Of a stretch of 64,000 nt of DNA, positions 4,622-64,000 are shown in pieces. This DNA is from Protonemura montana (Eukaryota > Arthropoda > Insecta > Plecoptera > Nemouridae). How positions within the stretch are numbered: the stretch's first letter is position 1; each line of letters starts with the position of its first letter. Position numbers and translations under genes: made by a program. The stretch spans positions 2,108,001-2,172,000 of the forward strand of contig OX387605.1 of NCBI GenBank assembly GCA_947568835.1. The letters run 5' to 3'. Below the pieces are notes generated by a model. The model ran no database searches. It worked only from the letters and a program-made list of their open reading frames with translations, and was not told where the DNA came from.

Positions 4622-4677
4622 AATTAATATAAAAATCATTGTATTTAATGCTAAATACAAAGATTTTTATATTAATT
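4622..4677. repeat. Near-perfect inverted repeat / hairpin
   Basis: The left arm AATTAATATAAAAATC (4622-4637) is an exact reverse complement of 4662-4677. The inner GTATTTA (4641-4647) pairs with TAAATAC (4652-4658), leaving a 4-base ATGC loop. Together they make a stem of about 26 pairs with a single weak spot. It could be a tiny foldback element or a hairpin RNA precursor; the sequence alone does not decide. Confidence 0.8.
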
Positions 4678-7486: not shown

Positions 7487-7650
7487 CTTATTATTTATTA
7501 TTAGGGACACTAATAACATCTCAAATATTGATGCATCAATTTTCATTGATTAACAAAACTGGGCATCAATTTTTGAGAGGTTATAAGCGTTCCTAACAAT
7601 AAAATACCCCGCGCATTGCAAGCGTTTGCAATTTAAATCAGATTTCACAG
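7487..7650. repeat. tRNA-SINE 3' fragments, head-to-head
   Basis: From GGGCATCAATTTTTGAGAGG (about 7560) the sequence matches the body of the tRNA-derived SINE at 15213-15380, down to GCGCATTGCAAGCGTTTGCA and AATCAGA. Just before it, 7487-7555 carries an inverted piece of the same body (ATTATTAGGGACACTAATAA). The tRNA-like promoter part is missing, so both are dead fragments. Confidence 0.6.
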
Positions 7651-8465
7651 GTGGCACATTCTTCTTCTCCACGTGGTTGTCATTGACCGTTCCTAACTCC
7701 AGTAAATCGATGGCACCGTGATGATGATTACACTCTGGCTTTAAGCACTGGATCAAGCATCAACTTTGCAGTGACTCTGGCTTCAGTAACGCTTCATGCA
7801 ATTGGTTGCTTTGTCCTGACTGCATTGTGACAATCAACTGAAACCCTGATAATACCTTTGTACCTCCGTAATACCCTTCGCTTTGGCCTTGACCGTTTAA
7901 GCCAAAGTATGTTCACTATCTTTGGTTTAAACCGGTTTTTACATAGCACTGCCTCCGACTCTTGTGTGGCATTTAGTTGCGCCAGTACGTAGAAGAAAAA
8001 ATAGGGTTTCAGCAGCCGAAGTAATTTATACAGACAAGAATGCTAAAGCATGTTTATGCTTTTGGAAGAACATGTGTGAAAAGGTTCAGGGCCTCAGAAA
8101 GGTAGAACTTTCTGCTCAGCCTTGCCTCAAGTAAGGTGAGGAACTTTAGACTTGATATGTCTTATATTCACACTCATTCTTGGTGTAACTTGAAAAGTGC
8201 CTAACAAGCTTGGCATGATACTTCCCCTTGCACGTTGGGTCCTCAAGAAATTGCACGGTTCACCTTTATATATTACCAATGGTCATCATGTTAGCACACC
8301 TCTGCTTTCGGTTAAGGAAGTAAAAAGCCTAAAACAGCAACGGGGGCTCAAAGAAAAGGAGCCACTTTCTCGGAAGATGGTTTCGTCCAGTACATAAAAA
8401 CGCCTGGGTCCAGATCTACAGAACTTAAGTTAACCCTCACATCCTTAGCTCCCTGTAATTACCAG

Positions 8466-11400: not shown

Positions 11401-14400
11401 ATAATTATATAAGGGGTGTACAGATGTTGGAAGTTTGGGAAACAATTGTGTACATCGCACAACTGAGTTTATTGTTTGTTGTAAATTGTACCGACTGTAT
11501 TGTTTAAAATAATGTCTGAAGAGAGAGCCTGGAGCGAGTTACAAACATCAATAACAAAATCAAAATTCATCGGCCGTAGTAGCAACAGATTCAAACTAGC
11601 ACCTGAGAGATACAAGACAAATGTAGGAAAGAAATTAATTTCTGGGAGATACAACAAAGGAGTAGAATAAGTTGCGATGGAAAGAACTCTTCCCATGGCC
11701 AGACTCTGTACAGATTTTCAAAACAAGGATTGGGGCAGTTGTAAAAGATACAACATTGTAACTCTGTCATATGAATATTGGATATTGTTTATATAACATA
11801 TATGTTTGATACGAATGACATATGTGATATTGATATAAATGAATTGTAACCCAGTGTAATGAACTGAAAACAATAAAAGCATCATAAGGATGACAAAGCT
11901 GGTCAGAAAACTAAAGTGGGATAGCCTTGTAGTGCGCCACTCCAGAGTCCGTCTACGCTAGATCTACAAGGCTGTGTGTGGACTCTACGCCTGGCAGGAC
12001 CTGGCCAAATATGTAGAAACTAACCAAAACAAGGCTGTGTGTGGACTCTACGCCTGGCAGGACCTGGCCAAATATATAGAAACTAACCAAAACAAGGCTG
12101 TGTGTGGACTCTACGCCTGGCAGGACCTAGACAAATATGTAGAAACTAACCAAAACAAGGCTGTATGTGGACTCTACGCCTGGCAGGACCTGGCCAAATA
12201 TGTAGAAACTAACCAAAACAAGGCTGTGTGTGGACTCTACGCCTGGCAAGACCTGGCCAAACATGTAGAAACTAACCAAAACAAGGCGGTGTGTGGACTC
12301 TACGCCTGGCAGGACCTGGCCAAATATGTAGAAACTAACCAAAACAAGGCTGTATGTGGACTCTATGCCTGGCAGGACCTGGCCAAATATGTAGAAACTA
12401 ACCAAAACAAGGCTGTGTGTGGACTCAACGCCTGGCAGGACCTGGCCAAATATGTAGAAACTAACCAAAACAAGGCTGTGTGTGGACTCAACGCCTGGCA
12501 GGACCTGGCCAAATATGTAGAAACTAACCAAAAAAAGGCTGTGTGTGGACTCTACGCCTGGCAGGACCTGGCCAAATATGTAGAAACTAACCAAAACAAG
12601 GCTGTGTGTGGACTCTACGCCTGGCAAGACCTGGCCAAATATGTAGAAACTAACCAAAACAAGGCTGTGTGTGGACTCTATGCCTGGCAGGACCTGGCCA
12701 AATATGTAGAAAATAACCAAAACAAGGCAGTGGTTTGAGCTGACAATGGACATAAACTATTTTTGAAGTTGTATAGTACAAACATAGGACGCCACTCACT
12801 GCTTGGCAGAGGAACCAGGCTATGAAACAGCCTGTCATTCAATCAACTTGACAAACATAGGACGCCACTCACTGCTTGGCAGAGGAACCAGGCTATGAAC
12901 AGCCCGTCATTAAATCAACTTGCCAAACATAGGACGCCACTCACTGCTTGGCAGAGGAACCAGGCTATGGAACAGCCCGTCATTAAATCAACTTGACAAA
13001 CATAGGATGCCACTCACTGCTTGGCGGAGGAACCAGGCTATGATCAGGCTGTCATTCAATCAACTTGACAAACATAGGACGCCACTCACTGCTTGGCAGA
13101 GGAACCAGGCTATGATCAGCCTGTCATTCAATCAACTTGACAAACATAGGACGCCACTCACTGCTTGGCAGAGGAACCAGGCTATGGAGCAGCCTGTCAT
13201 TCAATCAACTTGACAAACATAGGACGCCACTCACTGCTTGGCAGAGGAACCAGGCTATGGAACAGCCTGTCATTCAATCAACTTGCCAAACATTGTAAAA
13301 CTGTATAGTAACCACCAGACAGTGCAATTCACTTATTGTATATAATCCTAAGTTGCTAATAAAACCATAATAATAATAATAATAATAATAATAATGGCTA
13401 CGTACAATATCGTGGATCGGGTGGTTGGATGCGTGAGACTGCACTTGGTCTCGCAAGTTAAGGGTGTCCAGACAGTCAGGGTGCTGTTGAACGCAACTGC
13501 TAGCAGCGAGCCGTCCTGACTGAACCCCATCGTTCCCGGCTGCAGCGACTTATAGAAGCCGACGCTCTCGCACGTCCACATCTGAGACGAAGGTCCTGCG
13601 ATCGCACCGAGATGAAGGTTAGAGTCGCAGCGCTAATGTTTACAGTTGTAGAGCATCCAGCGTGTATGTGGTCGCTGGCACTTTATTTTAGTTATTCTTT
13701 TAATTTGTCTTTTAATTTCTCACAAAGATATACATAATACAAGTTGAGGTTCATACCAAGAAAATAAAAATTAAGTTGTGAACAATCCCACATAAATTAC
13801 ACTTGAGTTTGGGCTTGTCACAAAATAAATATTGATGCTACGACCGATTAAATTTGATGGCGACTGATTTATATTAAAAATCACTAATAAAGTAAAAAAA
13901 AAAATAATAATAATAAATAATAATAATAGAATTGACAGGATTATTTCCATTTTTGAGTATCAATTCAGAAATGTTAGTTTGGAATTTATTCCAGTCTTTA
14001 ACAGTACCTACTGACTTGGAGTGGGAGGCTGTTAAATAATTTAGGCTCCAGGTAATTTGCGTGTTATTGACCCCGAGTTTTCCTCATTTTAGGGACAGTA
14101 AACATGTGATGACTAATGATTATCTTTTCAAACGTTTCTTGGCAGTCCGCGATTAGAGTTGCTCCTTTGATACAACGTGGAATTGAGTGCGAATTGAAAT
14201 GCGATTGAGTGTAAACCAGTCTCACATGCAAGTAATCTTCGAGAAACAACGGAAAAAGATTTCCTAGCACTCGAAATGGCGATGACCTCACCTATGACCG
14301 ACCAAATTTGTTGGTGTAGAAGTATTCTGTCAGCAATTTTCAAACAAAATGTTTAAACCAGTGCCTGACCAAACCTAAAACCGTTGAGTGTAGGTTCTAG

Positions 14401-17400: not shown

Positions 17401-20400
17401 GAGTTTATTACGAATTGCATTTACAAAACACGATGGAATAACAACACGCTTATCTTTACTTAAAGCAGCCCATGAATTCACCCGGGAAACAAACGATTTC
17501 TACGCACAATGATGCAAACCTTATCCGAGGGTCAGCCCATTTTAGTCTTAGTGCCTTTACACGCCTTACACATAATCAGTTTATTTCCTGTAATGTTTAG
17601 CACATCGGTGTTATTTGTGATAAATAACTACATTGAATAACATGTTCCCACAATATCTATTCAACACCAAGAATATAATTAACCCAATATAATAGTTACA
17701 GTGTTATGCCAGCAAGCCAAAGGGAAACGATTTTATGTCAAATTTGCTAGTCCTCTCCAAATTAGATTTCAAATCTGATTAGTTTTTTTAATTTTAAGAG
17801 TCTTTCCACGACCGTGTAAAATATTATCACATAATTTTGTGCTTGCTGTTGTCAGATTTTGTAAGACTAAAGGAGCGGGTAGGTTTCTGCTTGCCGCACA
17901 AGGAAGGGGTTACGCTCATACGGTTAGTCACGGAAATCAAAACAGTCCGCGGGGAAGTTTGCGTTTTCAAATTTCTGAATATCTGTCATTTTGTAGCAAA
18001 TGCTTCAAGCTTTGTTGTTTAATGCCAAAATAAAAAGTCTCTGTGATATTAAATAAGTCAGTTAACTTCTGGAAGTATTGTGTGGTGAACTTTTTTATAC
18101 ATTTTTTCTACAAATTGTCAATTTACGACTAGAAATGATGGCAGAATTGAATATTTTATTTGAGTTTTAGATAAAACTGAGTAAGCCGAACTCATTTAAA
18201 GCAGTTATAAGATTGTTACTCTTAAACTAAGTAAATTACATAAATCTAAATATATTTATATATTTTTTTTTTTATAAAAGTTTGGATTCTTTAATTTTAT
18301 AGTCTTTTTCCGATGGTTATTTTTCCTCCTCTTTTCTTAAAACACACCTAGTAATGATTTGATCAAACATTTAGCTAGTTATATTGTTGAGTAAGCAAAA
18401 TTTCTTATTTGACGAGATCAATCTTTGCTCAGCATGTGTTATATGCCCAGTCGAATGGTTGGCGATGAAGTTGCAGTGGAACGTAAGGTCCGCTCACCGG
18501 TTTACCTCTTGGCACTAAAAGCGAAAAACATCGCTACGAAAGTTAGGCTTTTAAAAAGTTAGATCTACAGTTTTACAGCCAATGAATTATGTTATCTTCT
18601 CATACCAATATCACCATATTTGATGCATATTTAGCTCCGTTAAATAAGTTAAATCTGGAAATACACATTTTGCTTAATTTTGGCCACGTTTTTACCCACC
18701 TTTTCGTTTTTTTTTTTTTAATAAGTAACGGAAGAACGCGTTAATGCGTAGGTTTCTGAGAAACTAGACGTTTATATCCCCAAAAATAGCCTACACATTT
18801 TTTTTCTTTCGATGATATTCCTGGAGCAGATGCTTGATTGAGCCGTGCCGCTGATTTTGTAGCTTATCAGCAGGCGTTTTTGAGTCACGTGATAACCCAA
18901 CAGTTCGGCCCTTTTTGACGTGACTACGTCTTAAAGCGCATTATATAGGGAGGCATGTACGGATTTGCTCTCCAAAATAGCCAATGTGTAACAAGCTCTA
19001 CAGCCTACAGGAAGCTAAGTATAGAGTGCGACTTATTATCATTCAAAAGTTCAGACAATTATCTAAAAGTACTTTTTTTTTATTTTCGATAAAATAAATA
19101 TTGGAGGCGTTAGAGAGGTTGGCGTTTTTAATGCTCTCCATAAGACCAATGTTAAATTACGAAAAATGGCAAATGTGTAACAACCCCTACAGCCTACAGG
19201 AAACAAAGGACAGAATTCGACTTATTATCATTCAATAGTTCAGACAATTCTCTAAAAGTACTTTTTTTTTATTTTCGATAAAATAAATATTGGAGGCGTT
19301 AGAGGGGTTAGCGTTTTTAATTCTCTCCATAAGACCAATGTTAAATTACGCAAAATGGCAAATGTGTAACAACGCCTACAGCCTACAGGAAACAAAGGAC
19401 AGAATGCGACTTATTATCATTCAATAGTTTAGACAATTCTCTAAAAGTACTTTTTTTTGATTTTCGATAAAATAAATATTAGAGGCGTTAGAGGGGTTGG
19501 CGTTTTTAATTCTCTCCATAAGACCAATGTTAAATTACGCAAAATGGCAAATGTGTAACAACCCCTATAGCCTACAGGAAGCTAAGTATAGAGTGCGACT
19601 TATTATCATTCAATAGTTCAGACAATTCTCTAAAAGTACTTTTTTTTTATTTTCGATAAAATAAATATTGGAGGCGTTAGAGGGGTTGGCGTTTTTAATT
19701 CTCTCCATAAGACCAATGTTAAATTACGCAAAATGGCAAATGTGTAACAACCCCTACAGCCTACAGGAAGCTAAGTATAGAGTGCGACTTATTATCATTC
19801 AATAGTTCAGACAATTCTCTAAAAGTACTTTTTTTTTATTTTCGATAAAATAAATATTGGAGGCGTTAGAGGGGTTGGCGTTTTTAATGCTCTCCACAAG
19901 ACCAATGTTAAATTACGCAAAATGGCAAATGTGTAACAACCCCTATAGCCTACAGGAAACAAAGGATAGAATGCGACTTATTATCATTCAATAGTTCAGA
20001 CAATTCTCTAAAAGTACTTTTTTTTGATTTTCGATAAAATAAATATTGGAGGCGTTAGAGGGGTTGGCGTTTTTAATGCTCTCCATAAGACCAATGTTAA
20101 ATTACGCAAAATGGCAAATGTGTAACAACCCCTACAGCCTACAGGAAACAAAGGACAGAATGCAACTTATTATCATTCAATAGTTCAGACAATTCTCTAA
20201 AAGTATTTTTTTTTAATTTTCGATAAAATAAATATTGGAGGCGTGAGAGGAGGCGGCGTTTTTGGCACTCGTCATTAGACTAATGGAAAAAAATAATATA
20301 TATATCGCAAGATGACACTTCCATCCCAATCTGTAAAGCCTTTCAGCATGTAAATTAGATATGAAAACACAACCCAAATATAGAGAGATGTAAAACTTGC

Positions 20401-28251: not shown

Positions 28252-28905
28252 AAGCCGAAGTTAAGCAACACTGCGCTGGGTCAGGTATTGGATGGGTGAC
28301 CATCATACACATGACCAGTTCTGTTCGGAAGAGAGGTTGGAAGGAAGAAAGTTAAGCAACACTGCGCTGAGTCAGGTATTGGATGGGTGAACATCATACA
28401 CATGACCAGTTCTGTTCGGGAGAGAGGTTGGAGAGATGAAAGTTAAGCAACACTGCGCTGGGTCAGGTATTGGATGGGTGACCATCATACACATGACCAG
28501 TTCCGTTCGGGAGAGAGGTTGGAGGGATGAAAGTTAAGCAACACTACGCTGGGTCAGGTATTGGACGGGTGACAATCATACACATGACCAGTTCTGTTTG
28601 GGAGAGAGGTTGGAGGGATGAAAGTTAGTACAGCAACTTCACTCGCCTTGCTTATCAACCTCACGACAGCATGGATTTGTGGAGGAATCCTGTTGTTCGC
28701 GTTGTACCGTCCTTCGGAAGGGACGTTAAGCCGGTGGTCCTCTTGGTCTTCAACAGGAGTAGGCTACGTGCCGGCACCAGGTTTCCCCTCCTACCTTCTA
28801 AGCTAGGTTAGGTTCATCAACATCCACTCATTCACCGACGCCATAAGTCCAGTGCCGCACGGCCAGCTGTGAAAAAAGTGCGTCGTTAAACCTTAATAAT
28901 AAACG
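28252..28905 (+). mobile_element. 5S-rRNA-derived SINE with four tandem 91-bp heads
   Basis: GTTAAGCAACACTGCGCTGG followed by GTCAGGTATTGGATGGGTGA matches the 3' half of eukaryotic 5S rRNA (GTTAAGCAACG...TTGGATGGGTGACC). This block with its linker occurs four times at a fixed 91-bp period (TTAAGCAAC at 28261, 28352, 28443, 28534), then runs into the SINE body (ACAGCAACTTCACTCGCCTT through CCTTCGGAAGGGACGTTAAG) and the conserved tail GTGCGTCGTTAAACC. The body contains a 62-codon frame that recurs in other copies only because the repeats are similar. It belongs to the SINE3-type (5S-headed) class. Confidence 0.88.
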
Positions 28906-50200: not shown

Positions 50201-53200
50201 AACCTCCTCACGCCAAAGTGAGTACATAACCACACCTTCACTCTTTGTGTTACAATTTAACCTAATATCATTCATTAAAATAACAATTGCCACTTCCTGG
50301 CTGCTATTGGGCGGCCTCTGCCCCTTTTAGAACAAAAGTCGATGTACTCGGTGTAAAAATCCAAGCGAAACAATTCCAGGTCTCGGATTTCCAAGGTTGC
50401 CATTTTGAGCAACCTCAGAATATTTTGTTAATCTTTAAGTTCCTTGGCACGGACACCCACAAGACGGGCCAGAGTTGCAATCATGTGGGTCATTATGATG
50501 GTTTTTAGACTCATGTATACTTGATTCATCCTTAGCACTAGTTTTAACAAAAACTATTTGAAATGGGTTTTTAATGCTAAGTGAAGGACAACTAAAATTC
50601 CCGACGCTACGTTACATGTACTGGTTACTTCTTCAAGGGTTAGAGCAGTCCTGACAATTTTCCGATAACAAAAGAACCGCATAAAATTATAACAATTACC
50701 TAGTTCAAAAGCACCCTGTATAGCAACAGCAAGCCACGGCAATGTACTGACACCCGCAGTACTGTTGCATTCTCTCAGGACCTCTCGTCCTGTGCCGTTA
50801 GTAACACAAGACGGGAGTTGTCCCGTGTCTCCGTTGCAGATTGCTAGGCGTGCACCCCAACAGCTACACGTACTCCAAGAGGCTGGCGGAAACCTTAGTT
50901 CACGAGTACGGCAAGGACATCCACGCGGCCATCGTGCGCCCTTCCATCGGTAAGATCAACGCAATCTCAACATAACCAAGTCGCAACCTAGCTAACCTAG
51001 ACACCAGCTGTCTTGATATTTTAGCTCCCACATACACTTCATATGTTTAGAGTTAAGTTTCACAGCATGGTACTAGGACCCCTTATACACATGACCAGTT
51101 CTGTTCGGGAGAGAGGCTGGAGGGATGAAAGTTAAGCAACACTGCGCTGGGTCAGGTATTGGATGAGTGACCATCATACACATGACCAGTTCTGTTTGGG
51201 AGAGAGGTTGGAGGGATGAAAGTTCAGCAACACTGCGCTGGGTCAGGTATTGGATGAGTGACCATCATACACATGACCAGTTCTGTTCGGGAGAAAGGTT
51301 GGAGGGATGAAAGTTAAGCAACACTGCACTGAGTCAGGTATTCGATGGGTGACCATCATACACATGACCAGTTCTGTTCGGGAGAGAGGTTGGAGGGATG
51401 AAAATTAGTACAGCAACTTCATTCGCCTTGCTTATCAACCTCTCGACAGCATGGATTTGTGGAGGAATCCTGTTGTTCGCGTTGTACCGTCCTTCGGAAG
51501 GGACGTTAAGCCGGTGGTCTCCTTGGTCCTCTTCGACAGGAGTAGGCTACGTGCCGGCACCGGGTTTCCCCTCCTCCCACAGGCTAGGTTAGGTTCATCA
51601 TCATCCTCATCATCATCCACTCATTCACCGACGCCATTAGACCAGTGCCGCATTGCCAGATGTCAAAACAGTGCGTCGTTAAACACCACAAATAATAATA
51701 ACTAGGACCCCTTATGCTGGATGCTTCAAGTACCTTACACCCCGTGCAAAGGGCGCTTGTTCTGACCCCACATCTGTGCAGTACTGCCCACGCTACACGA
51801 GCCCCTGCCCGGCTGGGTGGACACCCTGAACGGTCCCGTGGGGCTGCTCGTCGGGGGTGGCAAGGGAGTCATCAGGACAATGCTTTGCGGGGCTGATTTC
51901 GATGCCGAGATGATCCCCGTGGACATCGCCATCAACTGCATCATTGCCATCGCTTGGAAGATCGGCACAGAGAAGTAAGTTGATGGGGTGGGCGTTGTTA
52001 GCACTATAGTGTTATTCGATTTAACTTGTAGTTCTTTCATGTGTTTTTTAAAACACTTCTCTAAGGCTTCTCTAACATAAAAATTCAAGCCTTGCTTTTA
52101 AGGCTTAAAAATGCACATCGTACCATTTGCTAGATGACTTTGTCTTTTTAAAGTCATTGCTTACAATGACAAAAAACAATACAAAAAACATAGTTACCAA
52201 AAAACCATTTCCAAAATGTCTCTTTTGCACGCCGAGCTAAACTGTTATTCACATTCATTATCTAACCATTTTGGCAAATTGATGGCTTTTCAAGCGATTT
52301 CACCTTGTAAATCGCTTCTCCCTCCACTGTCTAGACCGGAAGGCACCCCCGTATTCAACATCTCGCAGAACGCGTACGTGAAGATCACATGGGGCGAGAT
52401 CCTGTCTCTGGGTCGCAGGTTCATCGACGACTACCCCTTCGAGGGCGCAGCTTGGTATCCTGACGGCAACATCCGCACAAATCGCATGGTGCACAACGTG
52501 CTGGTAGTTCTTCTGCACACGCTGCCCGCGTACTTTATCGACTTCCTGCTCACGCTGGCAAGACAGAAGCGTTTGTAAGTTGCAACTTTCAACATTTCCT
52601 CTCTATTCTTGTGACACACTGGGTCTGTCAGCTGGGAAACAAAACACTGCAAACTGTTTATCACCTCCCCGTGGTTACCATAGCTTTCGATATAACATTC
52701 GGTTTGGAGGAAAATCAATTTATTAAACAATCGACAGCTATCCAAAGAAATGGTTGACCATTAAGGTCTAGCTTACCTACTGATCTATATTATAAATACA
52801 ATTTCTTATTAATAATATTTATGATTATGATATTATAATATTTATGATTATGGTCATGGTAATTATGAAGTGTTTTCATATAAATGGTTGAACAAGATGC
52901 AAATCGATGCTTTAAGAACGGCAGGAACTATAGAGTCGAACTAGAGAGCGAGATGATGAATCGCTTGAGGAAATCATAGCGTTCATTCATTGGAAGTACT
53001 GACAATTCAAATTTATATGATTGGGAAGTGTCCGAACTGGTTTCCCACAATGTTTCGTGAGTTTTACTGGCAGGGGTTGGTAAACATGGCTGCAAACTTG
53101 TTCCAGTAACAAGGTTTTCAGTCAGATTGAGGTTAGATCTGAACATTAAAACCCGCTAATCGCCAGCTTTAGTTGATCTACCACATCCCAACAATACAAA

Positions 53201-54199
53201 CGTACTAACGCGACTATCGCCATGAAAAGTGGTCTAACGAGACACGACCCACGAGACTCACGCAACAATTGTTTGCTCGTGCGTACAGCATGGTGCGCGT
53301 TCAGAAGCGCATCAGCACGGGACTCGAGGTGTTGCAGTATTTCACCATGCGACAGTGGCGCTTCCGGAACGAGCGTGCGGCGAGCGTGGAGGACCACATG
53401 ACCGAACGAGACAAGGAGGTCTTCTACATCACCAACACCAAGTACGACATCAACAAGTACATGCTGGACTGCATCCTCGGAGCCAGGCAGTACTGCATGA
53501 AGGAGCCGCTCTCCTCGCTGCCCAAGGCGCGGCGCCACATGAAGATGTTAGTATTGATTGCCAGTGCTTGACGCAGGAATAAACATAACCTAACCCAACC
53601 GTACCCAACCGTACCCAAACTAACCTAACCTAACAAATACCATACCAAGCACGGGAAGAATAAATATCCGTGCCGGGAGTCCTATCTTTGACCGACCATG
53701 GAGAGGATTGCATCGAGGCGATTTGTGAGATAAATGGGACTTTTTCAATCTTGTGTAAACGTGTGCGAACAGTCAAAAGCATTACTGCTGGTTTCCCCGC
53801 GCTTAAGCTCATAAAATATTTTGGAAATGAGGGTTATCTGGCTTAACGGCTTCGAAGAATCCGTGGGTGATGATGAGGATGATGAGCCTAACCTAGTCCA
53901 GAAGGGCGGAGGGGAAACCTTACGCCCTCCGAAGAAGGGTACGAGGCGAACAACAGGATTCCTCTACAAATCCATACTGTCCAATGGTTAAGTCTAATAA
54001 AGCGTTCTATTACCGAGTAGAAGTTTTTGGTCACGAGTGTTACGATTGACGTTAACATCTTCACTGTGTTCCAATTAATCTCTGTTCCAGGCTCTACGTG
54101 CTGGACCGGATAACAGCCGCGTTCCTGTACTGTCTCTTCGGATGGTTCCTATACAAGACGTTCTTCGGGTTAACAACAGTGTTACAAAAGTACCAATGA
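44242..54199 (+). CDS. FAR: Fatty acyl-CoA reductase, alcohol-forming
   Basis: NADPH-dependent reductase converting long-chain acyl-CoA to primary alcohols for wax, cuticular or ether lipids, on ER or peroxisomal membranes (family knowledge). Nine exons: 44242-44247, 47370-47549, 47871-48119, 50072-50217, 50840-50949, 51782-51974, 52335-52574, 53289-53546, 54091-54199; phases agree throughout, giving 496 residues, a normal family length. Features: Rossmann motif TGGTGFMGK (residues 15-23), HGAA in VVFHGAASLRLEAG, catalytic Tyr203/Lys207 in SYTYSKRLAE, RPSIV, the C-terminal FAR_C (sterile) domain from about residue 370 (VQKRISTGLEVLQYFTMRQW) and a hydrophobic C-terminal segment (AAFLYCLFGWFLYKTFFGL). 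Exon 1 contributes only Met-Thr before GTAAGT; it was chosen because phase 0 joins exactly to VAEWYDGRCLL, where related enzymes begin. AATAAA at 54404-54409 probably ends the transcript. Confidence 0.95.
44672..44780 (+). repeat. Copy of the AGTAGACATGAGTC interspersed family
   Basis: AAATTTAGTTGTCCTTTACT, TAGCAATCAAAACCCATTTG, AAATAGTTTTTGTTAAAACT and AGTAGACATGAGTCTAAAAA appear in the family order. It lies in intron 1 of the reductase gene. Confidence 0.65.
47132..47153 (+). repeat. Poly(G) tract in reductase intron 1
   Basis: An uninterrupted run of about 22 G residues. It is potentially G-quadruplex forming, and the length is uncertain. It lies 216 bases upstream of exon 2. Confidence 0.9.
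48886..49182 (-). mobile_element. 5S-derived SINE, minus orientation
   Basis: The 3' tail (GTTGTCAAAAAAGTGCGTCG, read on the minus strand) is at the left end. The 5' end at 49182 reads GAACGGTTTGGCGTGTTGGA, then AACACTGGTCCTCGTTAGAT, then CACCGAAGTTAAGTAACACT. This includes the 5' half of 5S rRNA (compare CGGTTCTCGTCCGATCACCG in arthropod 5S), which is absent from the tandem-head copies. The middle of the body is deleted. Confidence 0.8.
49629..50020 (+). mobile_element. 5S-derived SINE with a near full-length 5S head
   Basis: It starts CGAACGGTTTGTCGTGTTGG and continues ACACCGGTCCTTGTGAGATC, ACTGAAGTTAAGCAACACTG and GTGTTGGATGGGTGA, covering most of a 5S rRNA including the internal pol III control region. 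A single head is followed by the body and the tail GTGCGTCGTTAAACAC. It is inverted relative to the copy at 48886-49182. It lies in reductase intron 3, 52 bases before exon 4. Confidence 0.85.
50512..50600 (-). repeat. Reversed copy of the AGTAGACATGAGTC family
   Basis: Reads TTTTTAGACTCATGTATACT (reverse of the family tail), then AACTATTTGAAATGGGTTTT and TAATGCTAAGTGAAGGACAA. It lies in reductase intron 4. Confidence 0.6.
51087..51700 (+). mobile_element. Multi-head 5S-SINE with intact target-site duplication
   Basis: Three 5S-like heads at a 91-bp period (marker at 51132, 51223, 51314), a partial linker before them, then the common body and tail (GTGCGTCGTTAAACACC) ending in AATAATAATA. 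The element is flanked by a perfect 15-bp direct repeat ACTAGGACCCCTTAT (51072-51086 and 51701-51715). This is a target-site duplication typical of LINE-driven retroposition, so the insertion is recent and its ends are known exactly. It makes up most of reductase intron 5. Confidence 0.93.
53584..53637. repeat. Degenerate CCTAA-type tract
   Basis: AACCTAACCC, ACCGTACCCAACCGTACCCA and AACTAACCTAACCTAAC are related to the arthropod telomere motif TTAGG/CCTAA, but only two to three units are exact. It lies in reductase intron 8, about 40 bases after exon 8. Confidence 0.5.
53850..54000 (-). repeat. Truncated 5S-SINE body
   Basis: On the minus strand it contains AGGAATCCTGTTGTTCGCC and GGTTTCCCCTCC, matching the SINE body, followed by CTAGGTTAGGCTCATCATCC. 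The head and tail are missing. It lies in reductase intron 8, before exon 9. Confidence 0.65.
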
Positions 54200-55397
54200 C
54201 CGAAATCTCTCGAACTTAGGCACTGACAAGTTACTGCCACCTGTATTGTTTGGTATTCTTTCGTTCAAATCAGCGGTTGTCAAACTGGGGTCCATGGAAC
54301 CGTACGAAATGATTGCATAGCACCATGATTATATAGCACCAGAACAGTTTAAGGAAGTTTTTTAAAAAACCGAATCTGATTTTATATCAAAGAATATAGC
54401 CTCAATAAACAGCCTGGCTCATCTACATCTACATTCAACATACGCGAATAAATAACATAAAAACTGCACTTAACACAAAATTTTGACAAAACTTTAAATG
54501 TAAAGTTTGACCAGTTTGGCGATCAAAAGGGGCCAAACAAGAAATGGTAAAAGAAGTGTGAGAATTTCGTGGCTAGGTATTAGGGAACCAAATGGAATGC
54601 ACCTTCAACTCAATGGTACTACCGTTGGTACTACGCGTAGTGCGTGAGTAGCCGAGTGACTTCTGTATCTAGCATGTCATGTCTGTGTTTGCACGTTGTC
54701 ACAGAGTAAAATGCAGGCCTCGCACAGCTAGCAAGAGGAATTCCGTGGAAACAACAGAGATTGGGCACTAAAATGCATGTTTTATCTTCACACAGGCCAT
54801 CATTTAAGCCATTGCACGTAGGAATTATTATTTTGTATCGATAATAAACACACTTAAAACGGCTTCTGAACGCAAAGTTCGCAAGATCTTTGTCGACTGG
54901 ACTTGGAAATACATTTTTTTATATCTCCAAATTTCCCAAAACACTTTTATATTTAAAAGATAACTGTCTCCAATCATCCAAACCTATCCAAGTTATTAAT
55001 TTTTAGGACTTAAATAAACCCTGATAGTTAGGCATCCAGTGGTACACACGAGTAGCACGGTAACATATCCGTAGCCATGTCAGACGCTGTGGATCTGTGG
55101 AAAGGAGGTTATGTTGTTATTGACACACGCAATGCGTTTGGCGTACAAGGATTTATTTCAAACAATTCGTTGAAAATTGAAATAGTCCTGCACGAAATTT
55201 ATGGTTCAGTTCTATTGATAATACTAAATAAGATTAAAAAGCACGTTAAATAAGTGTTAGATAAGTATAATTTTTGTGTCTTCATCTTGAAGCAGGATTA
55301 AGTTTTTATCGTCATAAGATAGATTGAGAGCAGGTTTCTTTATTCTATGGTGATATAGAGGAAGGTACTATATGGTACTATTTTGGTGTATATTAAA
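54200..55397. other. Reductase 3' UTR and DXO upstream region
   Basis: The first 210 bases to AATAAA (54404-54409) are probably the reductase 3' UTR. The rest is AT-rich intergenic DNA. It holds one short frame, 55077-55253 (58 codons, GCCATGT start context, beginning MSDAVDLWKGGYVVIDTRNA). That frame might be an upstream ORF of the DXO transcript or a fragment of another gene. Confidence 0.4.
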
Positions 55398-57423
55398 ATG
55401 TGCGCTAGTTACTCCAATCATGACCGGAAGAAATTTTTAAGTACGAGGCAAGAAGATCACGTTGGGAATTTCCCCAACTTTCAACAGCCAAGTGTTCAAG
55501 GATATTTCAGCGTGGATGGATATAGAAAATACCAGCCAAACCTTTCACAGATAAAATACCTTCATCTTCCTAAAGCATTTGGCCGAGTCTCATTCGATTT
55601 AAACCACGGCATCGAGAAAGGAATAAAAAAAGATGAATCGAAGATTGAGCACTTGGACATAATATTGCAGTGGGCCCATCAAAATCAACAGAGAATTCAT
55701 GATTCAAAGTACCTTCATTATTTATTCGAATTGACAGTTCAAATTCTTGGCAAGGAGTTATTAACAACTTAACAAATGTCTATTTACAGGACACAGACGG
55801 ATTTTTTTTGTTACCGCGGGCTTATAACATTGCTTTTGTGTACACCATACGAACAAAAAGAGAACTGGATCATTTGTGCTACTAAATGGAAGGGCACCAT
55901 TTACTTGTGCACTTTCGAGACGGAGGAAAAACGCCAAAATCGACAGAGTGCATCGGCTTTTCAAAAGCGCTGCATGGCTTGGGGCTACAAATTCGAACAG
56001 TTTATGAGCAAAGGTGAAAATGAGGCTACTACAGCAAAAGCCGGTTTGTAGCTCAAACTACATCGTAATTACCAGCAATCAAACTTTTCACTTTTCAGAC
56101 ACTTTGGACTCTATGCCTGACACGAGGAAACCTGTCAACGAGTGTGAAGAGTTGTGTGTTACATTTCGTACTCGTTTGAGTGAACACAGCATTATTTTTG
56201 GAGCTGAAATGGATGGTGTTCGGGATAACCGTGAAGTCACTGATCTGGACGAGTTGTCAAAAGCTGTCTTTGTTGAATTGAAAACTAGCAGACACATTCA
56301 GTCTGAAAAACAAAATTTCTCTTTTTTAAGGTAATTATCTTCAGATATCTTCAATATCTTCAATATCTTCCATTTAGATTCAATTCAATATCATTAGAGT
56401 ATGTCATATAGATTAATTTAAATATCTTTAGCGTATGCCATATAGATTCAATTTGGGCTTGGGCATATTTTGTTCCCCAGGTAAGAATCTTTTACTTTGG
56501 GTCAATAGTACAAATGGCTAAAGACTAGTCTAGGTAGTAGTGGTGAAGAAGAAAAGAATTTAAGTAACCTAGGTTGGTTCTCCTTTACTACGGGAGCAAA
56601 GCGAAATGGCCGGTGCATCATCCTTCCTCGCGCCATATTTCGTTGAGTCAGTTCATCTTAAGTCTCTCCACAATTTCAAGTAGTTTTTTTGTTTCCTTGC
56701 AGATATAAACTTTTGAAGTGGTGGTGCCAAAGTTTCCTTGTTGGCATCAAGGATGTGATTTGTGGGTTCAGAGACGACAATGGCGTGGTCCACGAGCTCG
56801 AAGAGTTCCCTGTCAAAGAAATGCCCAAAATGGCTCGAGTAAGATGCCGAACAATGTTGATTACTACAAAAACTAAGGATTTGAACTGGGTTTTGAACGC
56901 TAAGTGCAGAACAACTAAATTTCCCAACGTTTCGTAACTTGTACCTGTTACTTTATCAAGGTTCAAGAAATAAGTAAAGAAATAAAGACTACTTTAACCC
57001 TTAAGAAAGTAACGGGTACAAGTTACAAAATGTTGGGAAATTTAGTTGTTCTTCACTTAGCATTCAAACCCCAGTTCAAATAGTTTTTATAAAAGCTAGT
57101 GCTTAGGTTAGATGAAGTAGACATGAGTCTAAAAACCAGTAAACTGTTTGCTATGATAGTTTCTTGGTGCTTCTTGCTTGTGGAGATATGGATCTAAGTT
57201 TCCCATCTGTCCTCAGGGCTACTGGGACCCATGTGTATGCATGAACTTCTGCAGCAGCTTCCTATCCCTTGCAAAGAGCGTAGTGGTCGAAATGGGCCCC
57301 GCTGATGTGTGGAGATTCGAGAGGGGGCCAGGATCTGACAGGGTCACATGGGCTCACGTCCCGGGGCCCTCAGAATTCACGTTTTTACCACCGTGGTACA
57401 CAAAGTCTTCAGACTTGCCATGA
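55398..57423 (+). CDS. DXO: DXO/RAI1 decapping exonuclease
   Basis: Removes defective or non-canonical (including NAD) 5' caps and degrades the RNA 5'-3'; RNA quality control (family knowledge). Five exons: 55398-55708, 55790-56013, 56099-56330, 56703-56838, 57217-57423, phases consistent, giving 369 residues against 396 in human. Landmarks: FFCYRGLITLLLCTPYE, YKFEQFM with Glu173, metal-binding Glu215/Asp217 in FGAEMDG, Glu238/Lys240 in VFVELKTSR, then YKLLKWWCQSFLVG and CMNFCSSFLS. All the catalytic carboxylates expected for the family are present. The start at 55398 is the first ATG in frame; an upstream TTG extends the frame by only five codons. The gene follows the reductase on the same strand and converges on PDRG1. 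Intron 4 contains a foldback repeat starting 30 bases after the donor. Confidence 0.95.
56868..57140. mobile_element. Foldback repeat in DXO intron 4
   Basis: The left arm (about 56868-56955) is the inverted copy of the right arm (about 57006-57100). Paired landmarks are CAACTAAATTTCCCAACGTT with AATGTTGGGAAATTTAGTTG, and AACTTGTACCTGTTACTT with AAGTAACGGGTACAAGTT. The right arm continues into the family tail AGTAGACATGAGTCTAAAAA. It has no coding capacity. Confidence 0.85.
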
Positions 57424-58773
57424 TGCTGGCACAACCACCAGGCCATTATTGTGCCTACTTACTCATTTACGTACAGCGTAAGTGCTAATCCTTTACAAAC
57501 ATGCATTAATGTATACTATCATAGATATATAGTAAGACTTTAAAACCACTGACAATTTCAAGGAACTAACGAAGCAACATTTTGCCGATCAAACCAACTG
57601 CATGACCAGATTGGTGCCCAGCATTATCAAGCTTAGACATCCTACGGCAAATGCTCAGGAAATTGCTGCAACCAAATCAAGAAGCCTTTGTTTATGCTGC
57701 AAAAACAATCTTTCATATGTGTATCTAATTTGGGATGGATTAAAGATATTGGTCAAAATGGCTGATAAAGGATTCAGTTTAAAAACTATGTTTTTATTTA
57801 ATAACAGTCAGTGCTTGAAGTCCTTATCCCCAAACAAGTTTTAGCAAGTGTAACTCAACAATTTGGAATTCCATTAAGGAAAACAAGAAATTAGCGCTGG
57901 ACGTTTCTCGACAGAAAATCCTGCATTTACATTTCTTGGTGTCGAGACGCCTGAATAATCTTTGCTAGGTTAACGATGTCACAGTCATAGTGAAGTGAAT
58001 GCAAAGGAGCTGGGTCTCCGAGTTGGCCTGAAGCAACTGTTTCTTCTGAACCCAAAAAGCATGTATTGTACCGATAGAAATCGTGTCGAAGAAGTCGGAA
58101 GCCAGCGAAACTAGTTTTCTCTACGCACTTTCACTCCACACAAATCCATCGGTGCTGATCGTCGTCATTGTTCTGTGAGCATCCGTCGTTTGTGTAGATC
58201 CTGAGATTTCAGGTGCCACGCGATCTGCGGTCTGGACTCTTCCAGCGAGAGAACAAAATGTCAACACGGTCTCCCTGAACAAACCGAGGAACCGAAGTTT
58301 GGTATCTAAACTTTTACATACGTTAATATGAACTTAATTGGTGAGTTGCACCGCATACAATCTCGGTTCAGTGCGTTGGTCGTTTCTTTCCTCTTCTCGA
58401 TACATTACAGCTAAAAATATAATATACATATTTTTATACACACATGTATGGACATAGAAATCAGAAACAGTATAATTTGTTATCGACAACCCAGGTGCGT
58501 TTTAATGCACTCGAGAAGTCCAGAAGTGTAAATCAATCTACATTGGTACAACAAAATAAAGAAACACCATTTATTTTCACTTGACTTTGAATATTAAACA
58601 CACTATTAAAGTTCAGAAAATATTTATGGTACTATCACAGCATCTTCTATCGAGATCCAACTGCTACAAATTATATAAAATTATAAAACAAAAAACTGTG
58701 AACAACTAGAGAGTAACGGGTGAGCAACAACGTTCACACACCTGTACGTTGTTAGCATGATTCCCGGCTGCCA
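57424..58773. other. Convergent 3' region of DXO and PDRG1
   Basis: Contains the 3' UTRs of the two converging genes. On the minus strand an AATAAA at 58575-58570, about 200 bases after the PDRG1 stop, is a good poly(A) signal. On the plus strand only a weaker ATTAAA near 57739 was seen for DXO. An 80-codon frame at 57602 lies in the probable DXO 3' UTR and has no supporting features. Confidence 0.5.
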
Positions 58774-61000
58774 TTACGACGACTCAATCCCGATTACTTT
58801 GTGCACAGCTCCAAGCTCCGCACGAGAGAGCGGAGTGAGCATCAGGCCTCCGATCGGTGGCTTGTGTTCAAGGTCTTGCAATCGGTTCACCTTCAACTTC
58901 AGCTCACTGCGCAACTTGTTGATCTCCACGTCCAGCACCACTTGATCTAAACAGTCAAGAAGGCGACATTGACGTGCTTTTCAAACAATCATTGTTTTCA
59001 ATTCGGAAACTTAGTTCCGATGGTAAGGTAATAAATTCAGGAACAGTACAAGCGTTGCAAACTAGAAATGAGACAATGAATCAGGATGACAAGTTTCTTG
59101 ACTCACTTTGATAATGAGTAATAAAAAAAATATATATATATATAAATAATATAATTGTTAAGTCTTCTAAATTAAATACAGTATTAACTAAAGGAATTAG
59201 TGATTGATTATAATAAATTGTCAAAGGAAATTAGGAATATAAAAACTGTAAATAAATTTAAGACTAAATTGTACGAGAAATTTAAAGAGGACGAAGATGA
59301 TGTAATGTAAAATTGTTCTTTTAATAGCTAAAAAAGCTAAATAAAAACCATACAAACAAACAAATATATAAGGTGAGCTTCTGTTAGATTCAGAAAGTTC
59401 TAAAAATGGTCAGAATTATAACATTTTTGAGTATTGCAGATTTCTGTGTTGAATACCTTTTTCCAGTATCTCTTGTGCCCGTTTCTGCGTGGTTTTGACG
59501 AGCATGGCGCCAACTGTTATCCAAGTCTTCTTCAGAGGCTGGGCCGACGTGATGAGCGCTCTGATGGCCTCGCGGTTCTGGTTGCGCCGTCCGTCCAGAG
59601 CGACAATCTCCTGGCGATCGGAGATTATTTCTCCTCCCAGCTCCTCGAGCTGCGACAGGTACTCCAAGTCTGCAAGACAAGCGAGGATAATGTGAGTCAG
59701 AAACGATCATAACTAGATTTAAAGTGGGTGGTGAAAATACCTACTATAATAGTTTTAGTGCCGGAGCACACTCTCAATACGATGACTTTTCAAAAATGCT
59801 AGCTTAGCTCTCTACGAAGTTCCATGTCCTTTTTCTTGTCAGCTGAGATATGTTTCTTTCGTAGTCGTTTGTCCGTTTCTCTTGGTTTGCGTTCAGTAAA
59901 AACTGCTGCCTTTTCTCCTGGTCCAAAATGAGTGATGCGAGGCTCCACCCGATCCTTGCCGATCCCAGTTCGATCTCTTTTCAGAACGGTTTTGCAAGGA
60001 AACTTGTGGCCTGTTCCATCACGTCCCAGGCCACATTCTTTATCCCATCCACTTTTCAAGAGTATTTGATATCCTTTGTTGGCTTCCGAAATTCCGTAGA
60101 TGGTGCCAAACGGTTTAGGTCGCGAGTTGAATAAGTGTACAGTAGAGCTTACGTGCTTCTTTCTTGTGATGTCGCAAAATTCACGCTTACACACGTCACA
60201 GTTAAACTTCTCAAATGTTACATTTGCTTTCTTTCTACCAGAAGATGATGCTTTCTCTGCTCTTTTCCCAGCAATGCAATTCTTTATCACATTAACAATA
60301 GATATGTGTCCCTTTTGCTTGGCCAGAGTTAAGCAGCTGTTGTACTTTTTGTCTCGAACACTCACATCAGCACCCATATTAATCAGAAGCTGAACAACAT
60401 TGAGAGCTCCAGAACACGAAGCGCACATCAGAGCTGTCCAGCCAAATTGGTCTGTCACATTGATGTTGACACCCTTTGCTAAAGTCTTAGATACATTGGT
60501 AGTATCATTATTTTCTGCACACTTCATAAGGTTATTTATGTCAGTTTGCGTTATTGACTGATGCGGGGATGTAGGCGAATTCACACCGGATTGGTTACCA
60601 GTCTCAACGTCATCATCAGAATCAAGTATTTCTTGCTTGATAGTTCTATTTAAGTGACTGAGTCCGACAGAAGGCTCACAGTCAACCAAGATACTCGAGT
60701 CATTATGGACATTCTGAAATTCACTAGCGCCTAGTACTACATCTTCATATGTCTTCTTTGCTTGACTGCCTGTTAAAGGTGACACCTTGATTTTTCCATG
60801 CCATGCTGGGGTAGATTTTAATGGAGGTTTGTCTGGAGTTCCTTCCCGTACAAACTGCTTCCATGATATGTTAGCAGTAGCAAGAGATCGCCAGTTGGGA
60901 TGCATTGTCAAGATTGCGACCCACGAAGTTTAGGTTATAGTACACGTTACGCTATTTTGCGTAGTACACTAAAGAACTCACCAGTGGGGTTGTTTGACAT
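58774..61000 (-). CDS. PDRG1: PDRG1, prefoldin-like co-chaperone subunit
   Basis: Small coiled-coil prefoldin-like protein of the R2TP/URI prefoldin-like complex (family knowledge). Three exons in coding order: 61000-60982, 59669-59457, 58946-58774. Exon 1 is only 19 bases (MSNNPT plus one base) before GTGAGT; phases 1 and 1 match and give 134 residues (human 133). Landmarks: LEYLSQLEELGGEIISDRQE, LDGRRNQNREAIRAL, then EKDQVVLDVEINKLRSELKL and KVNRLQDLE, ending GGLMLTPLSRAELGAV. The two alpha-helical heptad regions of a beta-type prefoldin are visible. Exon 1 is the least certain part, but its phase, the Met start and the final length all fit. Intron 1 (59670-60981) contains the complete GPANK1 coding region on the same strand. 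A poly(A) signal is at 58575-58570. Confidence 0.9.
59799..60905 (-). CDS. GPANK1: GPANK1, G-patch and ankyrin-repeat protein, intronless
   Basis: Probable nuclear RNA-associated protein; the G-patch typically docks onto DEAH helicases (family knowledge). A single exon of 368 residues from ATG 60905; an in-frame TAA nine codons upstream fixes the N-terminus. Order: a motif near the start (HPNWRSLATANISWKQFVRE), an acidic region with a possible SUMO site IKQE (residues 89-92), ankyrin repeats about 122-212 (GWTALMCASCSGALNVVQLL), a C2H2-like CDVCKREFCDITRKKHVSST (236-255) and a G-patch at about 277-322 (LLKSGWDKECGLGRDGTGHK). The C-terminus is Lys/Arg-rich. It lies wholly within PDRG1 intron 1, same strand, its ATG 77 bases after the PDRG1 exon 1 splice donor. 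Codon choice is AT-rich, unlike the GC-rich PDRG1 exons. Confidence 0.95.
   Translation of the reverse strand: MHPNWRSLATANISWKQFVREGTPDKPPLKSTPAWHGKIKVSPLTGSQAKKTYEDVVLGASEFQNVHNDSSILVDCEPSVGLSHLNRTIKQEILDSDDDVETGNQSGVNSPTSPHQSITQTDINNLMKCAENNDTTNVSKTLAKGVNINVTDQFGWTALMCASCSGALNVVQLLINMGADVSVRDKKYNSCLTLAKQKGHISIVNVIKNCIAGKRAEKASSSGRKKANVTFEKFNCDVCKREFCDITRKKHVSSTVHLFNSRPKPFGTIYGISEANKGYQILLKSGWDKECGLGRDGTGHKFPCKTVLKRDRTGIGKDRVEPRITHFGPGEKAAVFTERKPRETDKRLRKKHISADKKKDMELRRELS
60947..61000 (-). promoter_or_regulatory. uORF of unspliced PDRG1/GPANK1 transcript
   Basis: If PDRG1 intron 1 is not removed, its ATG reads MSNNPTGEFFSVLRKIA and stops (TAA at 60949-60947). This 17-residue upstream frame ends 42 bases before the GPANK1 ATG, a distance that could allow reinitiation. 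It exists only if GPANK1 transcripts begin upstream of 61000, which is inference. Confidence 0.35.
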
Positions 61001-61639
61001 TTTAGAAGCCAGTTAAGACCCTGGCAATTGATGAGAGGTTTACAAACGGAGATAACCTATTCAGACCCCATGTACCTAGACAAATTCAAAGATCAGAAGC
61101 AAACCCCTACTAGGTGCACATTCAGGATATAAAAGTACCAGAAGAACTCACACCAACCTAGAAAATATATTACCATGATTCTTCTGTTAACTATCTGATT
61201 TAAAAGTAGCAAAAAAAAATTTTTTCTTTGGTTGAAACATTTAATAGTTCAAGTAAAAACAAATATTGAATGAAAAACAAAACAAAATTCATCAGCCAAA
61301 GTTCAAATTTGTATTTATTTTCGGTTACTTTTAACTTTTATCGGGTTTGGCATGCAAACCGCTTTTTGGTAGCCATTGCGAGAATCCGCTAGTATACGGT
61401 AGGTACGGTCGCATTTAAGTTCTTATTTTTCAATAGATTAAGTTTTACGTCAAAAAAGTGGTCAATTCACAAAGAATTAAAATGCATTATTATCTTTCAT
61501 AATTTCCTGGTTAATTTTCAAACTTTCCGGTCAAGACTAGCTATATTTTGTATTCTAAAGTTGGCAATATGTAGTCAGTGACGTCCGAGTCCTCCAAGCT
61601 CGCGACTGGACCCTCACTGGACCGCCAATCCATTCAAAA

Positions 61640-63515
61640 ATTCAGAAGAGCACTTTATGTAGATCACAGACCACACACAGTAACTCAAACCACACAAAAA
61701 CCATGTAAATTTTTAAACCACATCTTGAGATAACAGAAAAGTTTGGGCCGGCTTTTCTGAATCAACTCATTTGGCTCATCTGCAAGATCATATGTAACAG
61801 CAAGTGAAATAATCACCGAGTCATGGATCAAACTATTTCATTTTCCCCTTTCCTGTCTCAAATCAAGGTTTTAGACACTCTCCATCCATGCCAACAAATG
61901 TTAAAGCAATTAGCTTGTTTATACACATGTTCTAGCCCATTTCAATCAGCCACTTCAGCAAAAATCACCTTGGCACGTAGCGAGTGTATTTGTAGCGTTT
62001 GTTCACAAAATTCAGCACGACACCAAAGCCCCCATGGCTCAGAAGGGACTCGAGGTATGATGAGCTTGGATTGCCACCTTTTTCAAAGCTCAACAAGCCA
62101 GATATCATTTAAATAAATATAGTACTTCTAACTGACACAGAATACCACTTCAAACACAAAGGGAATGGGGATTGGAAGATACAGAAGTCCTCAGTTTTAC
62201 AAGCTACAAAAACGCAGCAAATACCTTTTCAGCCGGGTATTCCAATCAAATAGCTTTAGGGTTGTAAATATTTACAGTAGGACACATCATTGATAGTTTG
62301 ATACCCATCAAATACGTATCATATGCTTTAATCAATCTAATCTACAATGAAGTCTAACTAAACCTAGTCTAAACTTACAGCCTAATTTAAAGCCTAATTA
62401 AATACTACCATATTAGTATTAATATTATTATTATTATTACTTCTACTATAAGTACCATTACCATCGCTACCATCTCTACGAAGAACTATTGTACAGTTCT
62501 AGTCTAAACTGATAGTCTAATGTTTAATTATTTCATTAGTATTAATATAATCACCATATTATACCATATTACCATATTACTATATTACCATATACCATAT
62601 AACTATATTATATAGCTCATACAGATACATTGTACCTGTCCGCAGCAAATAAATAAATAAATAAATATTATTAGAATTTAGAATTTACGTGTTTGTGTTT
62701 ACGTAAATCTACTGACTGTGAGAGTGGTGCAAATAGAAACATTATGCAGGCAAGCGATTAAGTTCTATCGCTTGTAAATTTGGTCACATGAATCTTAAAG
62801 TATCTGAGGAAACCCTACTCTCCCTTATGACTCTATCTGCTATGACGTGATGTTGGTTTCATTTACCACAATGTTAGAGTTCTTGGCATAATGCAAGCTA
62901 AGAGAAAAAGTGCAACATGAGAGAAGACAAGAAATATGAGACATGCAAACTAGGAAACAGATCAACCTGCTAATGGTAGACACTGCGACAAAAATTAAAC
63001 TTCTGAGAGAGAACCTACAACAATCCACTGCGACAACAAAACAATTCTTTCGTTAGGAGAACCTACAACAATGAGAACTGCTATAACAAATCAAGTTTCT
63101 GGAGGAGAACTTACAAAACAAAAACTAGACTCATCTCCAAACATTTCCTGACTTCTCTGATGTCACACAAATGAATTAAAATGATTAATATTTCCTGAAC
63201 TTCAGATGCAAACAGCCTCTGAACTAATGTGATGTTAAGCCCTGCAAAGCAACCAATGAAATATGTTATCAGACAAATCAAAGTGACCCATGTTCCGTCA
63301 GAGCCCTGATAAAACTCTCACAGTGCGTCCTTGCAATGATTTCAAGTGCTCGATGCAAGGTCTCCGAGCCGAGTGCAGAGTTTTTGTCGGAGTTCTTGTC
63401 GCTGCAGTCCCGGAGTTTTGAACGAGAGGAATCCAAGACTGCGGCGCGTGGAGTGAACCTGAAGACAGCAGAATAAAGTCACATTAGGCTCGTTCAAAAC
63501 TACATAACGACTCTT
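61640..63515. repeat. Dispersed duplicated segment, copy 2
   Basis: Colinear with 23040-24590. The outer part is diverged (shared GGGCCGGCTTTTCTG, AAAGCAATTAGCTTGTT, ATTCCAATCAAATAGCTTTA). The 62690-63505 part is nearly identical to 23590-24540 apart from a roughly 150-base gap and a small insertion near 63151. This copy has gained an AT-rich simple-sequence block (about 62400-62670). Like copy 1 it lies a few hundred bases upstream of a minus-strand gene. Confidence 0.85.
62641..62670. repeat. (AAAT)n microsatellite
   Basis: About five AAAT units followed by ATTATT. It is part of a broader AT-rich simple-sequence block within copy 2 of the dispersed segment. Confidence 0.8.
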
Positions 63516-64000
63516 GCACACATTAAGACATGCATGCATACGACAGGTATTTTCTTTGCGATTCCCCTGATTGTGGCTAGGAGGGCAGCTTAGGATAACT
63601 CTGCTTGATGGCACTTAAAGGCGTTTGAAGACCACAGCTCTCGATGGTCACATATCACATGATCGGTTGCTTGGCACAATTGTAGCCTCTTAAAGGAAAT
63701 TAAATGTCTGCCATGTTCAATTTGAATATGCGGTCTAGCTTCAAAGCAATTTTTTGGGAACAGCTAATAATGAAACGCTGCCAGTGGGAAATCCTGCAAG
63801 CTGATTGCTCTACACAGGAATAGCCATTGCAACAAAAGAGCTGGCTGCAAAGATGGGGAAATAAAGGAAAGAAAACAAATGAGACCTATAGGAATCAATT
63901 TTCAGTAATATATATATATTTGAAATATTACAAATCTACACGTCAAGACAGGGTATTTACTATCTAAAATGCATTTCATGGTCACCGAATGTGACTCGAT

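Follow-up and report, generated by a model that had tools for sequence, protein, structure and literature searches.

GPANK1 lies within the first intron of PDRG1 on the same strand in Protonemura montana, with a possible choice of product by transcription start position

Several described loci carry one gene inside an early intron of another gene on the same strand. In unc-60 of C. elegans, which encodes ADF/cofilin, two products share a first exon, and one of them has all its other exons within intron 1 of the second; in the cholinergic locus, VAChT lies on the same strand in the first intron of ChAT (both as given in an excerpt of PMC3469465). In human, the protein-coding gene KTI12 lies in an early intron of TXNDC12, on the same strand (excerpt of PMC3192792), and 75 nested parallel pairs are counted among 749 overlapping pairs (excerpt of PMC2330155). 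Here we describe a new case of this known arrangement in a 64,000-nucleotide stretch of the genome of the plecopteran Protonemura montana (GenBank assembly GCA_947568835.1, contig OX387605.1, positions 2,108,001–2,172,000; hereafter "the window", in whose numbering positions are given): a complete, intronless GPANK1 frame inside intron 1 of PDRG1, both on the minus strand. We propose, with nearly an even chance of being right, that these two unrelated genes share a compact promoter region of at most ~240 bases, in which the position of the transcription start selects the product.

The predicted gene structure, read from the sequence, is as follows. PDRG1 exon 1 (60982–61000) is 19 nt long, with the letters ATG TCA AAC AAC CCC ACT G followed by GTGAGT; it consists of the start codon and 16 further bases, encodes MSNNPT and the first base of the codon for D, and ends in phase 1. 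Intron 1 (59670–60981; 1312 bases) has a strong donor, GGTGAGT, and a strong acceptor, TTGTCTTGCAG; exon 2 (59457–59669) has 213 bases; intron 2 (58947–59456; 510 bases) has weaker sites (donor score 3.8, acceptor score 6.8); and exon 3 (58774–58946), including the stop codon, has 173 bases. The joined PDRG1 frame has 134 codons. The GPANK1 coding frame (59799–60905) has 368 codons plus a stop codon, encodes ankyrin repeats and a G-patch, and lies entirely, without introns, in a single host intron. Specifically, 76 bases (60981–60906) separate PDRG1 exon 1 from the GPANK1 ATG at 60905, 129 bases (59798–59670) separate the end of the GPANK1 stop codon at 59799 from the start of PDRG1 exon 2 at 59669, and the two start codons are 95 bases apart. 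That PDRG1 intron 1 harbours GPANK1 in the same orientation had been stated in the original prediction, and the coordinates of the frames and splice sites bear this out; the predicted spacings of 77 and 130 bases were correct to within one base.

The locus resembles unc-60 in having two products and one start region. Unlike unc-60, it encodes unrelated proteins, with a separate start codon for GPANK1, whose use of exon 1 is no more than a possibility, through a candidate acceptor at 60769. The resemblance to the cholinergic locus, which had been offered as the model for the arrangement, holds for the layout, in that intron 1 of one gene contains the frame of an unrelated gene on the same strand, and fails for the first exon. 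In the cholinergic locus, both mRNAs include the first exon, which is non-coding; PDRG1 exon 1, by contrast, contains a start codon, so a shared exon would place the wrong AUG ahead of GPANK1. The cholinergic locus also has a functional link, one transmitter pathway, for which no counterpart is shown for PDRG1 and GPANK1. KTI12/TXNDC12 and similar pairs have been studied as cases of transcriptional interference, whereas here the start codons are only 95 bases apart. ASDURF belongs, as a prefoldin-like subunit, to the same co-chaperone complex, and its translation is from an upstream frame on the mRNA of another gene, ASNSD1; that case involves one bicistronic mRNA, whereas here the PDRG1 frame is split by an intron. 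Our literature search found no paper naming PDRG1 and GPANK1 together, and combining PDRG1 with intron and nesting retrieved only work on shrimp PDRG1 that used nested polymerase chain reaction.

PDRG1 exon 1 at 61000–60982 is very probably real, judging by its splice sites and frame. Splice sites were scored with a generic, approximate matrix. The intron 1 donor scores 10.7, which places it in the top 0.09% of GT sites (7689 in the window, counting both strands), in agreement with the earlier claim of a 19-base first exon ending at a good donor; the exon 2 acceptor scores 10.2 (top 0.56% of 7380 AG sites in the window). Since the sites of intron 2 of the same gene score lower, the matrix does not simply flatter PDRG1. 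Among the ATG-to-donor candidates of compatible phase in the 4331 bases that precede exon 2, 62 in all, exon 1 ranks first and leads the runner-up by 4.2 bits. In 164 kb of strand (the window and two further stretches, L011 and L012, both strands), it is the only start exon of 10–40 nt of this quality, a frequency of 0.026 per 4331 bases; when the upstream region was simulated 200 times with a first-order Markov model, a candidate as good arose 6 times. The predicted start methionine lies within 2 residues of the start of human PDRG1.

The identity of PDRG1 is supported by profile and pairwise comparisons, and that of GPANK1 by profile comparison. PDRG1 matches Pfam Prefoldin_2 (2.1e-6), passing narrowly with 28.1 bits against a cut-off of 27.6; its joined protein scores 234 against human PDRG1, compared with 32.5 for the best of 300 shuffles; and among solved structures its best match is prefoldin beta (E 0.0047). 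The stretch QIVDLDTKRNQNREALRAL, given as conserved in PDRG1 in an excerpt of PMC5409776, is identical here at 14 of 19 residues. GPANK1 matches Pfam Ank_2 (9e-13, residues 126–207) and G-patch (8.8e-10, residues 276–316), both above cut-off and in the order expected for GPANK1, with ankyrin repeats followed by a C-terminal G-patch. Its alignment to human GPANK1, made to look for similarity beyond these domains, scores 236.5 without a shuffle control and is weak at the N-terminus; its search against solved structures returned 357 sequences, at least 60 of which match the ankyrin part.

Each gene is single in the 258-Mb genome. In searches of all 34 contigs (window = C3:2108001–2172000), PDRG1 gave two matches, its own exons 2 and 3, and GPANK1 gave 124 matches at E≤10, among which that in the window alone covers the whole protein. 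The other 123 are partial and lie mostly in the ankyrin region; the second best (E 5.5e-7) comprises ankyrin repeats 126–206 alone. A search for GPANK1 relatives in prokaryote and virus contig collections found none among 34 + 2 pattern stretches, a result that is not informative on animals. None of 13 direct-repeat families (≥9 nt) flanks the GPANK1 frame at both ends, and no A-run follows its stop codon. A recent retrocopy origin of GPANK1, considered and set aside, is thus unsupported, there being no second GPANK1, no flanking direct repeats and no A-run; GPANK1 could still descend from an old retrocopy that took the place of its parent.

The DNA upstream of GPANK1 falls into two parts: a single-copy block (60906–61146; 241 bases, including exon 1) and a diverged copy of a dispersed repeat (61147–61600). 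A genome search with the 495 bases that precede the GPANK1 ATG gave at least 40 matches besides itself; 39 of the 40 cover the far ~250 bases at 80–84% identity, and one is a fragment. Because these 40 were scored from 458 candidate matches, the family is larger than 40. Most matches end at 61152 or 61147: of 17 copies read, 16 end at one of these positions and one at 61154, and of seven copies aligned locally, all with near ends at 61152 or 61147, six have far ends at 61552–61600 and one at 61405. Other copies extend ~45 bases beyond the edge, in sequence absent from this locus. The block from 61146 to 60906 has no match in the genome other than its own, so the single-copy DNA available for proximal control of the two genes comes to 241 bases in total, exon 1 included. 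This block must hold the proximal promoter or promoters of both genes, unless the repeat supplies one, and the 241 bases between the repeat edge and the GPANK1 ATG leave little room for two independent promoters. The original prediction had seen little room for a separate promoter in the bases between donor and GPANK1 ATG; the short single-copy block makes shared control more likely, and start sites inside the 241 bases are compatible with such little room. Farther upstream, 62332–61611, likewise a dispersed repeat, matches another genomic place at 70%.

Two side observations concern this region. By eye, the copies of the repeat at 61147–61600 have TA-flanked short termini reminiscent of miniature inverted-repeat transposable elements of Tc1/mariner type. 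The CpG observed/expected ratio in 500-base windows is 0.42–0.69 over the promoter and most of GPANK1 (61250–60001), and is ≥0.9 from 60250–59751 downwards over PDRG1 exons 2–3, except for 0.89 at 59500–59001 (mean of the whole window, 0.91); the contrast between 61250–60001 and 60000–58001 could reflect differing germline methylation of GPANK1 and PDRG1.

The reading frames ahead of GPANK1 bear on which RNAs could serve it. In RNA that retains intron 1, the first AUG in this region is that of PDRG1, with A at −3, and it opens a frame of 17 codons plus stop (60947–61000; MSNNPTGEFFSVLRKIA) that ends 41 bases before the GPANK1 AUG; given this upstream AUG and frame, starts below 61000 would suit GPANK1 best. 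From the donor at 60981 to the GPANK1 ATG, no acceptor scores above 2.0, so the GPANK1 5′ end is hardly made by splicing there. At the other end, the 129 bases between the GPANK1 stop codon and PDRG1 exon 2 contain no AATAAA or ATTAAA; of the ten poly(A) hexamers looked for, a rare variant, ACTAAA, is the only one present (59759). The absence of the two canonical hexamers is weak evidence, because only ~0.2 would be expected by chance in 129 bases of this DNA (~0.12 AATAAA and ~0.09 ATTAAA); the scan gives no support to termination inside intron 1. The first canonical hexamers past GPANK1 are an ATTAAA at 59325, in PDRG1 intron 2, and then an AATAAA downstream of PDRG1 (58570–58575).

From these features we infer a choice among start sites, a shared promoter and a shared 3′ end. 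Start sites would be distributed across the 241-base block or would alternate inside it. Transcription from upstream of 61000 would yield RNA that carries the PDRG1 AUG and the strong donor, from which intron 1, with the whole of GPANK1, would be removed to give PDRG1; as few sites in the window score better than the donor of exon 1 and the acceptor of exon 2, and exon 1 is the only candidate of its quality in the 164 kb of strand, RNA containing exon 1 is expected to be spliced by default. Starts below the PDRG1 AUG, most simply below the donor at 60981, would yield RNA in which GPANK1 is the first frame and from which, in the absence of the donor, GPANK1 could not be spliced out. Such RNA would end at the ATTAAA at 59325 or at the AATAAA of PDRG1 (58575), with PDRG1 exon sequence serving as 3′ untranslated region. 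The polymerase start would thus decide, and splicing would merely follow. If the promoter is shared, each start event would be spent on one product or the other, and a subunit of a prefoldin-like co-chaperone complex would be tied to a G-patch protein, one whose function is listed as uncharacterized in an excerpt of PMC13111387. The locus would then be a simple natural case in which start position relative to a first-exon donor, not regulated splicing, picks between unrelated proteins.

Several observations weigh against this start-site reading. A core-promoter scan with a few motifs found no full TATA box, and TATA-like and initiator-like words occur at chance-like density. The repeat itself could carry a promoter. 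Exon 1 may be an internal exon fed from farther upstream through acceptors at 61020 (score 7.1) or 61075 (score 7.9), which would loosen the promoter argument. The lack of a poly(A) signal directly after GPANK1 is equally unexplained by start-site choice, and the splice argument draws on the same approximate matrix throughout.

Among the alternatives, passive nesting, which we consider unlikely, survives best. Here the two genes would have separate starts and separate control with no exclusive choice, and PDRG1 would perhaps be transcribed from upstream non-coding exons or from the repeat. The acceptors at 61020 and 61075 are in keeping with such exons, but the 241 single-copy bases would have to hold all nearby control.

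A single primary transcript, giving PDRG1 when intron 1 is removed and GPANK1 when it is retained or the RNA is polyadenylated inside it, was the mechanism first put forward, and appears to us rather improbable. The layout, the 76 bases from donor to GPANK1 ATG and the short single-copy DNA upstream would suit it, and human nested single-exon genes with retention of an upstream intron are described in an excerpt of PMC3192792. It fits poorly, however, with the strong sites on both sides of intron 1; with the PDRG1 AUG and 17-codon frame ahead of GPANK1, which would call for leaky scanning or reinitiation; and, a weaker point, with the lack of AATAAA or ATTAAA after GPANK1, where ACTAAA alone stands. 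Of the earlier proposal, the same-strand nesting holds and shared control of PDRG1 and GPANK1 is made more likely by the single-copy block; its mechanism of retention or termination does not fare as well.

Two further alternatives make use of the candidate acceptor inside GPANK1 (60768–60771; score 6.1), which would make 60769 the first base of its exon and keep the frame of exon 1. In the broader one, for which we see a small chance, the locus would be a binary choice between two unrelated proteins with one promoter and one first exon; this exon would be spliced to 59669 or 60769, giving either protein the MSNNPT peptide at its start, or would be skipped when transcription starts farther downstream, and a co-chaperone subunit would stand in a fixed trade-off with a probable helicase cofactor. 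In the narrower one, which we regard as quite improbable, exon 1 would be a coding exon common to both products, as in unc-60: joined to 59669 it would give PDRG1, and joined to 60769 it would give a GPANK1 that starts MSNNPTG in place of its own first 45 residues. The end of exon 1 is in phase 1, as is the acceptor at 60769 in the GPANK1 frame; the score of this acceptor is similar to the 6.2 of a DXO acceptor regarded as genuine and near that of the second PDRG1 acceptor (6.8); and a rather conserved stretch, SQAKKTYED, lies directly past the joint. But 5.2% of AG sites in the window score as high, and three of the seven acceptors listed inside GPANK1 (score ≥3) are phase 1, so chance is enough to account for 60769. 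GPANK1 codons 1–45 are open and best in that frame, yet 119 of 480 open stretches taken as background do equally well in the coding test, whose training included a DXO stretch (56704–56933) that runs past the exon into an intron, a small flaw.

That the PDRG1 first exon lies elsewhere, with GPANK1 merely its upstream neighbour, is the least probable alternative, since the 6 of 200 simulated regions with an equally good candidate stand against an exon 1 that is first of 62, unique in the strand searched and of matching N-terminal length.

Other features lie around the locus. A strong donor (score 9.9; CAGGTGTGT) at 58741 on the minus strand, 33 bases past the PDRG1 stop codon, suggests a possible intron in the 3′ untranslated region. 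DXO, of the RAI1 family, lies at 55398–57423 on the plus strand, convergent with PDRG1 and ~1.35 kb from its stop codon; five stretches match PF08652 in order (profile positions 1–68, 73–152, 157–224, 225–271 and 272–332). An AATAAA near 56983, considered as the DXO poly(A) signal, was dropped, as it sits in the last DXO intron. Human DXO and GPANK1 are both major histocompatibility complex class III genes, and CSNK2B is a close human neighbour of GPANK1; because CSNK2B here lies on contig C2 and the window on C3, we do not claim a preserved class III block. The apparent last DXO intron contains an inverted repeat (56879–57081) with 88-base arms, 89% complementary and 27 bases apart, which looks like a small hairpin-type mobile element. 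No RNA family reached gathering score in 54000–64000.

The window also contains large tandem arrays: 11966–12732 (63-base unit), 9769–10920 (43-base unit), 18973–20263 (189-base unit), 1871–2578 (50-base unit) and 12778–13293 (73-base unit). The 63-base array keeps an open frame of 258 codons, and the array at 1871–2578 is likewise open. Two arrays of a 91-base unit (28258–28627 and 51085–51407) include a stretch that, by eye, resembles the internal control region of 5S rRNA. Next upstream, in L011, an 863-codon open frame with no Pfam match lies at 4100–6691 on the minus strand, and beyond it, at 7623–8911 on the plus strand, lies a gene for a WD40 protein, for which Pfam shows WD40 only and which we take to resemble ERCC8/CSA.
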